A stretch of DNA of 50,415 bases from a virus: IMG/VR virus record IMGVR_UViG_3300046515_000274, positions 1-50,415 of that record; one strand, 5' to 3'. The notes below the pieces were generated by a model. It made no database searches and was not told where the DNA came from. It saw nothing but the letters and a program-made list of their open reading frames with translations. This document shows positions 2,854 through 11,128 of the stretch, in pieces (position 1 is the stretch's first letter; each line of letters begins with the position of its first letter). The position numbers were made by a program, and so were the translations under genes.

Positions 2854-3627
2854 TTAGGCTCGCGCTTCGAAAAGTTCGATCTGCGGTGCCGGGGTGTCGC
2901 GAATGCTGATTGCCTCGGCGATGCGCCGCTGCGCGGTTCCGAAGTGAGCCTCGTCCTGCTCAATGCCGATGAAGCGTCGGCCTAGTTGGATGCAGGCAAC
3001 GCCGGTCGTACCGCTGCCCATCGTGTTGTCAAGCACCACTTGGCCCGGATTGCTGTAGGTGGAAATCAGGAACCGCATCCAGGCGACGGGCTTCTGTGTT
3101 GGGTGATGGCTGGCGGTCTGTTTATCGCTCGAGAAGAACTGCACTGATCGCGGGTACCGGTCTGTCGAGTCATACTCAGTTAGTTCAAGGGCCTTGCCGT
3201 AGCACTCGGAGTTGACCGTCTTTCGCCGCGACATCTTCCGCTCGTGGCCGCTGGTCATCTGCGGGTTGTAGACCGGCTGTTTGCGGTAGAACACTTGAGC
3301 GCTTTCATGGGCCCTCAGCGGCTGCTTCTTGGCGTTCAGGAAGCCAGTAGCGGCGCCTTTTTCCCAGATCCATTCGTACTTGTAGTGCTTGGGATTGCTT
3401 GCCACCAGCATGGAAGCAAACGGCTGCGCGGCGCAAAGCACGATAGCTGCCTCGGGCTTTGCGATTCGCAGGTACTGCTCCCAAAGGGGGCCGAATGGGA
3501 TGACGATATCCCATGCGCACTGCGTGGTTCCGTAGGGAAGGTCAGCCAGTACCAGGTCAACGCTGGCATCCGGGATGGACTTCATCAGATCTAGGCACTC
3601 GCCGTGGTACAGGCTGACCTCGTTCAT
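2854..3627 (-). CDS. Site-specific DNA methyltransferase (N6-A/N4-C type)
   Basis: 257-residue SAM-dependent amino-methyltransferase of the D12/N4-N6 type. The catalytic DxPY motif appears as DLPYG (29-33). The SAM-binding box is near the C-terminus (DNTMGSGTTGVAC, about 200-212), followed by FIGIEQD, giving the beta-class order (catalytic motif before SAM motif). No partner endonuclease is adjacent, so it is probably an orphan phage methylase that protects phage DNA from host restriction. Its ATG overlaps the stop of the 16-codon gene upstream (ATGA). Confidence 0.88.
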   Translation of the reverse strand: MNEVSLYHGECLDLMKSIPDASVDLVLADLPYGTTQCAWDIVIPFGPLWEQYLRIAKPEAAIVLCAAQPFASMLVASNPKHYKYEWIWEKGAATGFLNAKKQPLRAHESAQVFYRKQPVYNPQMTSGHERKMSRRKTVNSECYGKALELTEYDSTDRYPRSVQFFSSDKQTASHHPTQKPVAWMRFLISTYSNPGQVVLDNTMGSGTTGVACIQLGRRFIGIEQDEAHFGTAQRRIAEAISIRDTPAPQIELFEARA

Positions 3628-6710: not shown

Positions 6711-6826
6711 GGGGATACCTCGAGCAATTTTGCGAATGGATGGAGAAACAGACCTGTACGAATGGAAGCATTGCTGCTAGTGCGTGATGGCAATATGATT
6801 CCTGCTTTTGCGCTCAGAGGTGACTG

Positions 6827-8023
6827 GTGAGTAAGTACATGCCCCTGGCCGATTTTCTTCGGTCCCAGACTGTTAACTCCATTGAGCTGACCTTCGCGCA
6901 AATTGATGAGCTAGTGGGCGGTCTGCCACCGATCGCGAGAAATCACAACGCTTGGTGGGCAAATTCAAGGACTGATGATTCACACACCTGGGCGCATCTT
7001 TGGATCGAAGCTGGTTGGGAACGCAAGTCCCTCGACCTGAGTGCAGAGGTTGTAGTTTTTGAGCGGCACTCACGCGAGCAAGAAATTTCAGGCTTCTGGT
7101 GGGTCAACCATAAGCAGACTTACCAAGCCGAACTTGAAGGGGGCTACATCTGGTCACCCACAAAAAATAAAAATGGCGCTCGAAACCAGACATACATCAA
7201 CCTGACGTTAGTTAGAGCCGGCGATGTTGTCATTTCCTACGCTGGAGGGCAGATTCGGGCTATAGGCGTTGCGACTTCTGTTTATACCGAACAGGCGAAG
7301 CCGGAAGCTTTTGGTCAAGCCGGCCAGAATTGGTCTGATACGGGATGGTTAGTTCCTATCGAGTGGACCGAACTGGACAAGGCTGTTTTGCCTAAGGATC
7401 ACATTACTGCGATTTCAAGCCTCTTGCCTGCGAAAAACTCCCCTTTACAAGCTAATGGCAACGGTAACCAGGGATGTTACCTCGCTAGTATCTCGCCCGA
7501 GCTAGGCTCCTTCGTTCTACGCTTGTCCAATAGTGCTGGGAGCGCGATTATCGAGCGGGTTCATGAACTGGAAGACCAGGTAAGAGCGGACGAAGCCGAG
7601 CGTGAAATCCAGCTAAATCAGGAACTGGCTGCTACTGAGCGCGAACAGTTGGTCCGCTCACGTGTCGGCCAGGGAACATTCCGCCTTCAAGTACTGGACC
7701 GTGAGAAGTCGTGCCGCCTGACTGGGGTTTCCGATAAGCGATTCCTGATCGCCAGCCACATCAAACCTTGGAAGGATTGCTCGAACATTGAGCGTTTGGA
7801 CGGTAACAATGGATTCATGCTAGCGCCCCATGTGGATAAGCTATTTGACCGAGGCTGGATAACGTTCTTGGACAATGGGGAATTGCTGGTTGCCGATCCT
7901 GCGAAGGAGGTTGTGTCAGCATGGGGATTGGCGTCTGGCATGAATGTTGGGGACTTCACGGTGGAGCAGCGAGGCTATCTGAGCCACCACCGGTCAGAGG
8001 TCTATAAGGGCAAGAAGCATTGA
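6827..8023 (+). CDS. HNH endonuclease with predicted modified-base reader (type IV-like)
   Basis: 398 residues in three parts. Residues 1-85 (SIELTFAQIDELVGGLPPIA, then HTWAHLWIEAGW) resemble the DUF7662 fold. Residues ~88-235 resemble an EVE/PUA-like reader (GFWWVN, YIWSP, AGDVVISYAGGQIRAIGVA, GWLVPIEW). A charged helical linker (245-278) leads to an HNH_2 nuclease domain (~290-360) with SHIKPW (His311), GNNG and APHVDKLFDRG (His335). Known EVE-HNH and SRA-HNH proteins cut DNA with modified cytosine, so a modification-dependent restriction role is the best inference. The GTG start at 6827 has AGGTGA just upstream; ATG 6839 is an alternative. It runs against the operon and is AT-richer, so it is likely acquired cargo. 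Confidence 0.75.
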   Translation: MSKYMPLADFLRSQTVNSIELTFAQIDELVGGLPPIARNHNAWWANSRTDDSHTWAHLWIEAGWERKSLDLSAEVVVFERHSREQEISGFWWVNHKQTYQAELEGGYIWSPTKNKNGARNQTYINLTLVRAGDVVISYAGGQIRAIGVATSVYTEQAKPEAFGQAGQNWSDTGWLVPIEWTELDKAVLPKDHITAISSLLPAKNSPLQANGNGNQGCYLASISPELGSFVLRLSNSAGSAIIERVHELEDQVRADEAEREIQLNQELAATEREQLVRSRVGQGTFRLQVLDREKSCRLTGVSDKRFLIASHIKPWKDCSNIERLDGNNGFMLAPHVDKLFDRGWITFLDNGELLVADPAKEVVSAWGLASGMNVGDFTVEQRGYLSHHRSEVYKGKKH

Positions 8024-8231: not shown

Positions 8232-9005
8232 TCAGGCCTTGGCGATGATGTCGGCCTCTGCGATCTCGCAGAAGAACGAACAGGATGGGATCTTCTCGTT
8301 TCGGCGCACCGGACCATCGCCCAGTTCGCGAAGGGAGAAGCGCACGTTTGTGGTTCTGTTGCGGAAAAGGTATGAGCCTTCGCCCAGATCGTCCTGGATG
8401 GTGCACAGCGCCTCGAACTGCTCAGGGAAGTCCTGGCGAATCGCTCGGAAGTAGCCTTCGCCGCCCTTCACGCAGCCGATGCAGTTGGCGTTGTCATAGC
8501 CCATCCGGTACATCAACGGCAGTTCGATGCCGGCGCGCAGCAGAATCGCCTTGCAGTCATCCTTGCTCAGGCCTCGGTCGATCAGCGGCGCGATCACTGG
8601 CCGGTCTGGGTTGCGCGCCCGGAAGTTCTCCAGGCGGTCGGCCTCCTCAGCGGTGTAGCCGAACACCATCACATCACCAGGCTGTTTCCACGTGTCGAGC
8701 AGGCGACGTTTTAGAATCTTCGTGCACGGGGCTCCGATCCGGCCTTTGATGTAGCGCTCGCGGCGGAACACCTCATGAGCATCGGCGCCGTACTTCTCGT
8801 CGCGCAGGACGGTGATCGGCTGGCCGAACCATGCCTCGCAGTCCTGGGCGAACCGGCGGTTGTCGGCTTCTTCGTTGGCAAGGAATGCGTTGATGATCTG
8901 CACGTCGTGCGTGCTGCCGTAGTCGGCCAGGGCCAGCTTGGTGGCCACCGCCGAAGCGGCGCCGCAACTGAACTGGCAGACGATTCTCTGGGTGTAGTTG
9001 GGCAT
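8232..9005 (-). CDS. PAPS reductase-like ATP-pyrophosphatase family protein
   Basis: 257 residues of the adenine nucleotide alpha-hydrolase fold. The PP-loop reads SCGAAS (13-18), a variant of SGGxDS. Later features include GRIGAPCTKILKRRL, GYTAEEADRLENF, and a Cys pair NCIGCVKGG near residue 178. Phage members of this family are often annotated phosphoadenylyl-sulfate reductase, but the Asp of the PP-loop is replaced, and a role in nucleotide or DNA modification chemistry is equally possible. GAGG precedes the ATG at 9005. The truncated cytosine methyltransferase follows 13 bp downstream. Confidence 0.8.
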   Translation of the reverse strand: MPNYTQRIVCQFSCGAASAVATKLALADYGSTHDVQIINAFLANEEADNRRFAQDCEAWFGQPITVLRDEKYGADAHEVFRRERYIKGRIGAPCTKILKRRLLDTWKQPGDVMVFGYTAEEADRLENFRARNPDRPVIAPLIDRGLSKDDCKAILLRAGIELPLMYRMGYDNANCIGCVKGGEGYFRAIRQDFPEQFEALCTIQDDLGEGSYLFRNRTTNVRFSLRELGDGPVRRNEKIPSCSFFCEIAEADIIAKA

Positions 9006-9056: not shown

Positions 9057-9707
9057 ATGAAATATGAAACTTCGGTTGTTTACGTTGAGCAGCTCCCAAA
9101 AGTCGTTGTTGATACTGGATTCGATCTGACAACTTTGATGGGTTTTCTTGTTACTGTTGTGTTGTTCGGGTTGGGTACGTGGCTAGCAATGCGTAACGCT
9201 GACAAAAACTCTGCGGTTCAGCGTGATTTGTTGAGGCTGAGTCTAGAGTCGCAGGCAGCTAGCTTGAATGAGCAAATTACCGCTCAGGAAAAAATATCAA
9301 AATCTAATGCGTTGAAAACAAGTAGGCAGGAATGGATTAATAGTCTTCGGAGTGAGATAGCGCATCTCCTATCGGTTGCGCACGAGATTCACAGCTTAGC
9401 CTATGATGTTAAGGCGATGAAAATAGGCGGAGATACAGAGGCGGCTATTCTCAGCTCTTGGAAAGATCATAGGGAAAAATCTGATAAGTTCTATGCGTTC
9501 GTGGCTAAGGCTAGGTTTCATGTGTCGAACATACAGCTGCACTTGAATCCTGCTGAGTCCGAATCGCAGGCGCTGCAAGAACAGATTGAGCAACTTATCG
9601 CTAACGCTTACGAGAACCAACGCATCGCTGATCAAATAGATAAAATAATAAGAATCTCGCAAACTATTCTCAAAAAAGAATGGGTCAGGGTCAAAGAGAT
9701 GGTGTAG
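9057..9707 (+). CDS. Membrane-anchored coiled-coil protein (cargo)
   Basis: 216 residues. One transmembrane helix near the N-terminus (about 25-46, LMGFLVTVVLFGLGTWLAM) is followed by a long charged helical region with coiled-coil character (SLESQAASLNEQITAQEKIS, then LQEQIEQLIANAYENQRIAD). The DNA is distinctly AT-rich and uses AAA, ATA and TTG codons unlike the flanking genes. It stands alone in rightward orientation between two leftward phage genes. A superinfection-exclusion or lysogen-expressed role is possible but not shown. Confidence 0.7.
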   Translation: MKYETSVVYVEQLPKVVVDTGFDLTTLMGFLVTVVLFGLGTWLAMRNADKNSAVQRDLLRLSLESQAASLNEQITAQEKISKSNALKTSRQEWINSLRSEIAHLLSVAHEIHSLAYDVKAMKIGGDTEAAILSSWKDHREKSDKFYAFVAKARFHVSNIQLHLNPAESESQALQEQIEQLIANAYENQRIADQIDKIIRISQTILKKEWVRVKEMV

Positions 9708-10474: not shown

Positions 10475-11128
10475 GTGGCAGCTAAACCAATCGTTTTACC
10501 TAGCAGAACATTCCCAACTAAAGGCAAGGCAGAAGAATTTTTTTCCGAAATGCTTGCTCGGTACAATGATGGCGATCGTGTTTCACCGGACGACGAAGTT
10601 CTGCTTTATGAGTACTTTCTCAGGAATCCGGACTCCCAAGATAAAATGGGTCCAGGTATTCAATATTTTTTCAAGGATAAGTCTCCAGATTACCCGACTA
10701 GCTGCTTTCATGTGTATTGGGTTCGCCCAGTTGGTAACACAAAATCGACTGATTTCGGATTGGGTGCATGTCGCGACGCCAAGGCGCCAACTGTTGCTGA
10801 ATCCTTCTACTCGGCGTGTCGGTACGCGGTTTATGAAGGTTTGAAGGATAAGAAAATAGCTATTTACGAAAACTCAGGAGGTAGAGTTCCTTGCTCAAGA
10901 ACCGGTGTTGAGACAACGTTCTCGACATCGGAGTACCGTCATACTGAGCCTAAGTTTAAAGATATTGTTCGTGACTTCATTTCGCTTCGTGACATACAGC
11001 TCACTGCATCACTCATGACTGCTGGTGAGAATGACCAATATGTAACGAGGTTTACTGACCCGTTGATGGAGCAAGATTTCATTCAGTATCACGAGTCAGT
11101 AGCGGAGCTGGCAATTTTTGCGAAATGA
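10475..11128 (+). CDS. DUF3223/DCL-family protein (cargo)
   Basis: 217 residues. The first ~105 match the DCL/DUF3223 pattern: FPTKGKAEEFFSEMLARYND, then DDEVLLYEYFLRNPD, GPGIQYFFKDKSPDYPTSCF and FHVYWV. The family is named from the plant DeCLuttering protein; its bacterial role is unknown. The C-terminal half has no recognised domain. The start is GTG with GGGGGT upstream. AT-rich composition and rightward orientation inside a leftward operon point to acquired cargo, as with the genes at 6827 and 9057. Confidence 0.75.
   Translation: MAAKPIVLPSRTFPTKGKAEEFFSEMLARYNDGDRVSPDDEVLLYEYFLRNPDSQDKMGPGIQYFFKDKSPDYPTSCFHVYWVRPVGNTKSTDFGLGACRDAKAPTVAESFYSACRYAVYEGLKDKKIAIYENSGGRVPCSRTGVETTFSTSEYRHTEPKFKDIVRDFISLRDIQLTASLMTAGENDQYVTRFTDPLMEQDFIQYHESVAELAIFAK

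Follow-up and report, generated by a model that had tools for sequence, protein, structure and literature searches.

What would a prophage gain from a nuclease that carries two further domains in front of its catalytic one, and what kind of DNA would such an enzyme attack? This question is raised by the gene at positions 6827-8023 of the window, by which we mean the whole stretch of 50,415 nucleotides that was analysed (IMG/VR virus record IMGVR_UViG_3300046515_000274). The gene is a genuine open reading frame on the plus strand, of 398 amino acids and beginning with GTG, and the motifs GFWWVN, YIWSP and AGDVVISYAGGQIRAIGVA, on which the original prediction drew for the middle of the protein, are found in its translation. 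The division into a DUF7662-like N-terminus, an EVE domain and an HNH_2 nuclease that had been read from the letters alone emerges likewise from Pfam, from phmmer against the PDB and from an AlphaFold2 model taken together; Pfam by itself recovers DUF7662 at residues 4-79 (E=1.4e-16) and HNH_2 at residues 296-347 (E=8.1e-11), whereas its EVE model has no match.

6827..8023, plus strand: DUF7662-EVE-HNH_2 endonuclease gene, 398 aa, GTG start; full-length relatives up to 98% identical
6836..7063, plus strand: DUF7662 domain, predicted winged-helix-like targeting module, residues 4-79, Pfam E=1.4e-16
7091..7531, plus strand: EVE (PUA-superfamily) domain, predicted 5mC/5hmC base-flipping reader, residues 89-235, by VcaM4I homology
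7535..7621, plus strand: inter-domain linker helix, residues 237-265, counterpart of the auto-inhibitory VcaM4I linker 148-178
7622..8011, plus strand: HNH_2 nuclease domain, residues 266-395, catalytic H311, N328, D337 and D341
8232..9005, minus strand: PAPS-reductase-like phage gene (phrog_424, E=7e-49), outside the enzyme, marking the accessory slot

The EVE assignment is carried by homology and by predicted structure. Residues 89-394 align in the PDB search to VcaM4I (6yex; E=1.6e-85), and 143 of 304 aligned residues (47%) are identical across the EVE and HNH parts. The AlphaFold2 model (mean pLDDT 86.8) likewise has 6yex as its best match (TM 0.82 by target length), followed in Foldseek by EVE and YTH structures such as THYN1. 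The suspicion that the middle domain is an EVE fold with a base pocket is thus upheld on both counts. VcaM4I is a crystallised EVE-HNH enzyme dependent on 5mC or 5hmC, which flips the modified base into a pocket formed by P24, W82 and Y130; Q10, T11, E15, W22 and S23 surround the base and Q128 serves as the wedge (PMC7897488). All nine of these pocket and wedge residues are identical in the window protein, namely Q97, T98, E102, W109, S110, P111, W169, Q215 and Y218.

The nuclease site is equally well preserved. The VcaM4I residues H224, N241, D250 and D254 (PMC7897488) correspond in the alignment to the catalytic H311, N328, D337 and D341, which are kept in 47 of the 47 relatives that cover these positions. 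The active site originally proposed therefore stands as regards His311 and Asn328 but not as regards His335, since the alignment makes Asp337 the metal ligand. His335 itself corresponds to VcaM4I His248, is non-catalytic and not invariant in the family, and was rejected as a catalytic residue. Between the EVE and HNH domains a helix is modelled at residues 241-263, where VcaM4I has its linker; as the linker helix of VcaM4I auto-inhibits the nuclease (PMC7897488), we infer that the helix in the window protein may do the same. The two proteins agree in the order EVE, linker helix, HNH, in the degree of identity given above, in the nine pocket and wedge residues and in the H-N-D-D site; they differ in that VcaM4I begins at its EVE domain and has no DUF7662. 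Homology to VcaM4I, the conserved base pocket and the active site all speak for the predicted function, and sequence comparison lends strong support to reading the gene product as a modification-dependent enzyme of the EVE-HNH type. By the same homology, 5mC or 5hmC is its likely target. A single-chain EVE-HNH type IV enzyme is as such a known kind.

Because the order EVE-linker-HNH is that of VcaM4I, the enzyme would naturally be expected to flip the base with its EVE domain, to release its linker and to cut as a dimer of HNH domains. We consider it probable that the protein is a single-chain, NTP-independent type IV enzyme which uses its EVE and DUF7662 domains as readers and excludes phages with modified cytosines. 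According to this proposal, the prophage would express an NTP-independent, modification-dependent restriction enzyme as one chain, which would dimerise via its HNH domains. Flipping of 5-methyl- or 5-hydroxymethylcytosine by the EVE domain, into the pocket of W109-P111, W169 and Y218, would displace the linker helix with its auto-inhibitory effect, after which the two HNH domains would cut the DNA at a distance. DUF7662 would bind DNA as an extra module and contribute further context, of sequence or of modification, giving two readers per enzyme. The likely role would be to keep out incoming phages whose DNA contains modified cytosines, and sibling prophages with C5 methyltransferases are plausibly among them.

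But what would a further N-terminal domain add to such an enzyme? Part of the answer comes from the relatives, which were gathered from 39 loci in viral contigs and 79 loci in bacterial genomes and whose module combinations were assigned with HMMs built in this analysis; single-protein queries with DUF7662 added one new viral locus. In this collection the EVE core is joined to at least five N-terminal modules and to two types of HNH domain. The layout of the window protein, DUF7662-EVE-HNH_2, recurs at L001-L008, L040, L041 and L136, and DUF7662-EVE is combined with a different, CxxC-type HNH at L019, L021, L128-L131 and L137. Enzymes of the McrA-like kind carry a CxxC-type HNH too. At least four other N-terminal modules occur with EVE and either HNH type (L009, L024-L027, L032-L039, L043, L045), and in an EVE-X-HNH_2 arrangement (L028-L031) the additional module lies between the two domains, while plain EVE-HNH is the layout of most genome loci. 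The original expectation of a new layout is hence partly confirmed: the DUF7662 layout appears to be new, yet it is not unique and recurs in many Pseudomonas prophages as one of several module combinations. Three further findings also appear to be new, namely the recurrence of the layout with exchanged modules in a single prophage slot, the association of DUF7662 with PIN genes and the absence of C5 methyltransferases described below. An architecture screen for such enzymes was reportedly carried out by Lutz et al. in 2019 and would be the likeliest to have listed a DUF7662-like N-terminus, and we claim no priority. A few relatives may be decaying or split genes: at L138 (1489-1872 and 1713-2699) and in the match regions of L245, L250 and L260, either the DUF7662 and EVE-HNH parts are in different frames or a stop interrupts or adjoins the match.

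Of interest for the function of DUF7662 are the fusions that lack the EVE domain, DUF7662-HNH_2 at L113 and DUF7662 with a CxxC-type HNH at L133, L134 and L139, as DUF7662 is the sole recognisable targeting module in these proteins. A second line of evidence is independent of the nucleases. Of the 399 genomes of the host genus (Pseudomonas, taken from locus L040), 8 contain DUF7662, as do 22 of the 398 sampled more widely across that host's phylum, and the genomic copies are mostly short proteins. Seven stand-alone DUF7662 genes adjoin a PIN gene (L143, L145, L149, L151, L152, L153, L155), an adjacency that applies to the stand-alone members and not to the window protein; the neighbouring PIN genes match PF01850 (VapC-type) with E values of 3e-8 to 2e-15, and three of the seven DUF7662 proteins match an antitoxin-like C-terminal tail pattern. 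These pairs resemble type II toxin-antitoxin systems in which DUF7662 forms the N-terminal half of the antitoxin, and they are apparently undescribed. Since this half of the antitoxin normally binds DNA in PIN pairs, the association provides independent, albeit indirect, evidence for DNA binding by DUF7662. Both the EVE-less HNH fusions and the PIN pairs point to DUF7662 as a DNA-binding targeting module.

The same PIN pairs could be turned to a different end. DUF7662 might take no part in targeting and instead mediate antitoxin-like autoregulation at the promoter, or serve folding or dimerisation only, leaving restriction to EVE-HNH alone. The stand-alone proteins beside PIN genes do look like antitoxins, which typically autoregulate, and a short conserved element common to diverged relatives lies upstream of the nuclease start; moreover, VcaM4I functions without DUF7662 (PMC7897488). 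We regard this explanation as unlikely, because it would leave the DUF7662-HNH enzymes that lack EVE without any targeting module, and because unrelated modules replace DUF7662 at the same position, which resembles the swapping of specificity modules. A role of DUF7662 in targeting thus remains the preferred reading. The upstream element itself (TTGC-n-G...TGAnnnCAATATG, about 6771-6797, plus strand) is kept in twelve relatives, some of them diverged, and is possibly a promoter or a binding site; a scan for sigma-70 promoters upstream of the nuclease gene gave none above chance.

How DUF7662 might contact DNA is suggested by its predicted fold. The model shows the topology helix-strand-helix-(two short helices)-helix-strand-strand, which is the winged-helix order, in the full-length as well as in the isolated-domain model. 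In Foldseek, many of the top PDB hits are winged-helix proteins, CodY and members of the MarR family among them, but these hits are weak, and the search as a whole gave no significant match (best E 0.49 in the PDB and 0.10 in BFVD). Profile searches of the PDB yielded no convincing relative either, and no DpnI chain was among the hits at E up to 10. The winged-helix assignment is therefore tentative, as it lacks both a significant Foldseek match and a sequence relative in the PDB. Among the papers covered by our literature search, none names DUF7662.

A winged-helix reader would bring to mind HHPV4I, an enzyme of an archaeal virus that still cuts specifically once its SRA/PUA-like domain has been deleted, and in which Gm6ATC is recognised by the winged-helix domain (PMC10101028). 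Could DUF7662 then be the main sensor of another mark, for example 6mA, with the EVE domain degenerate or secondary? We keep this alternative because it is the winged-helix domain and not the SRA domain of HHPV4I that is needed for specific cutting. The predicted topology, the EVE-less fusions to HNH and the sensing of 6mA by winged-helix domains in several nuclease fusions (PMC11037411) would fit it. Yet a degenerate reader would have no use for an intact pocket, and that of the EVE domain is fully conserved in the window protein; DUF7662, for its part, has no sequence link to any solved winged-helix domain. Furthermore, the same prophage encodes an N6/N4-type DNA methyltransferase (2932-3558, minus strand; PF01555, E 1.9e-25), so that the nuclease must tolerate its mark, and 6mA in the context of that enzyme would need to be tolerated. 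Taken together, we think it quite improbable that DUF7662 rather than EVE is the main sensor, and prefer EVE as a reader of modified cytosine with DUF7662 as the additional one. HHPV4I/HhiV4I and HtuIII (PUA-wH-HNH; PMC10101028, PMC11037411) do resemble the window protein in combining a PUA-superfamily domain, a winged-helix or winged-helix-like module and HNH, and HHPV4I is also virus-encoded. They differ in domain order, as the winged-helix-like module of the window protein is N-terminal, and in that their winged-helix domain is related to DpnI and reads Gm6ATC, while DUF7662 has no similarity to solved winged-helix domains. ScoMcrA (SBD-SRA-HNH; PMC7461809, PMC3009677) likewise places two reader modules on one HNH nuclease, but these are a sulfur-binding domain and SRA, and the window protein had no ScoMcrA match in the phmmer search of the PDB.

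The setting of the gene agrees with its description as an AT-rich, counter-directional gene carried by a prophage. Its GC content is 52.5% as compared to 59.7% for the whole record, and its GC3 is 57% as compared to 75-81% in the flanking phage genes. It is convergent with the PAPS-reductase-like gene (8232-9005, minus strand), a phage gene that neighbours the nuclease in many other prophages too, and the homology block among close relatives begins about 130 bases upstream of the start codon, with differing flanks. The PAPS-reductase-like gene adjoins the various module combinations at L001, L019, L024, L032, L033, L035, L036, L038 and L039 and likewise at L112, L116, L128-L131, L133 and L134. 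An EVE or DUF7662 nuclease stands beside it in 12 of 72 viral loci, the others holding unrelated genes. As a PADLOC scan of ten other ORFs from the slot revealed no known defence gene, we do not claim that the slot as a whole is a defence hotspot.

A mobile, AT-rich and counter-directional insert may also be a nuclease that serves the phage itself, for instance as a homing or host-takeover HNH enzyme, and HNH genes are common in phages. We consider such a self-serving role highly improbable, given that the nearest characterised relative, VcaM4I, is a restriction enzyme, that the EVE pocket is conserved, and that plain EVE-HNH relatives occur across phyla in many bacterial genome contigs without a phage label. 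Restriction, on the other hand, fits both the swapping of modules and the lack of C5 methyltransferase genes.

This lack is what would be expected of a 5mC-dependent nuclease. C5 methyltransferases (PF00145) are found in 0 of 45 nuclease-bearing virus records as opposed to 26 of 49 records that contain the PAPS-reductase-like gene without the nuclease (Fisher p=5.6e-10, for records that may be fragments and are not phylogenetically independent). Within the PAPS-gene set the contrast is 0 of 12 with the nuclease to 26 of 49 without (p=6e-4), and the window itself has no PF00145 C5 methyltransferase. The N6/N4 methyltransferases (PF01555), which served as a control, differ little between the two groups (10/45 and 6/49; p=0.27). 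In sibling prophages, the C5 methyltransferase genes are no more than about 3 kb away from the PAPS-reductase-like gene, nine of them on its 3-prime side, like the nuclease slot, and in the nearest PAPS-gene relatives of the window (L169, L170) the slot contains a C5 methyltransferase. These enzymes thus share a neighbourhood with the nuclease, but they write the mark that it is predicted to attack, and the two have no virus record in common here. This suggests that sibling prophages carrying C5 methyltransferases are among the targets of the nuclease.

On a tree of the PAPS-reductase-like gene the nuclease label requires eight changes, two of which are forced by starred branches; an independent-pairs test on the tree had only two supported pairs, too few for significance. 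At the level of the host, 399 genomes of the genus Pseudomonas were compared: a C5 methyltransferase is encoded by 5 of the 14 that contain a close EVE relative and by 202 of the 385 others (p=0.28). As the host genomes show no significant exclusion, a conflict, if real, must hinge on the sequence context, on expression or on location.

A more far-reaching proposal, which we put forward as speculative and rather doubtful, is that DUF7662 constitutes a new family of portable DNA readers, possibly for a base other than 5mC, that is used in PIN pairs as well as in prophage enzymes, where Pseudomonas prophages would shuffle it with other readers on a shared EVE core to give two-input enzymes that exclude rival prophages with C5 methyltransferases. 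If the preferred reading is right, DUF7662 would be an unstudied reader domain, and the slot would be a site at which prophages assemble modification-dependent nucleases anew from exchangeable modules. That virus records carry either the nuclease or a C5 methyltransferase, but not both, suggests direct warfare between prophages that mark cytosines and others that attack DNA so marked, and the swapping of the targeting domain in Pseudomonas prophages suggests how viruses resident in bacteria diversify their weapons against rival viruses. Modular readers of modified DNA would also be useful as epigenetic tools.

Some further genes nearby deserve mention. The PAPS-reductase-like protein itself weakly resembles SspD of the Ssp phosphorothioation system (PADLOC E 1.3e-7). 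Downstream of the nuclease gene lie two more counter-directional, AT-rich accessory genes (44-45% GC) at 9057-9707 and 10475-11128, both on the plus strand. The product of the first has what looks like a membrane segment at its N-terminus, together with a coiled coil, and matches LmuB weakly (PADLOC E 0.002); the second encodes a DUF3223 protein with a strong PADLOC match to HamC2 (E 8e-53), and among the adjacent ORFs scanned none matched the Hachiman nuclease or helicase models. In another prophage, the same slot holds a potassium-channel-like gene of the Ion_trans_2 type (L171, 5990-6943, minus strand).
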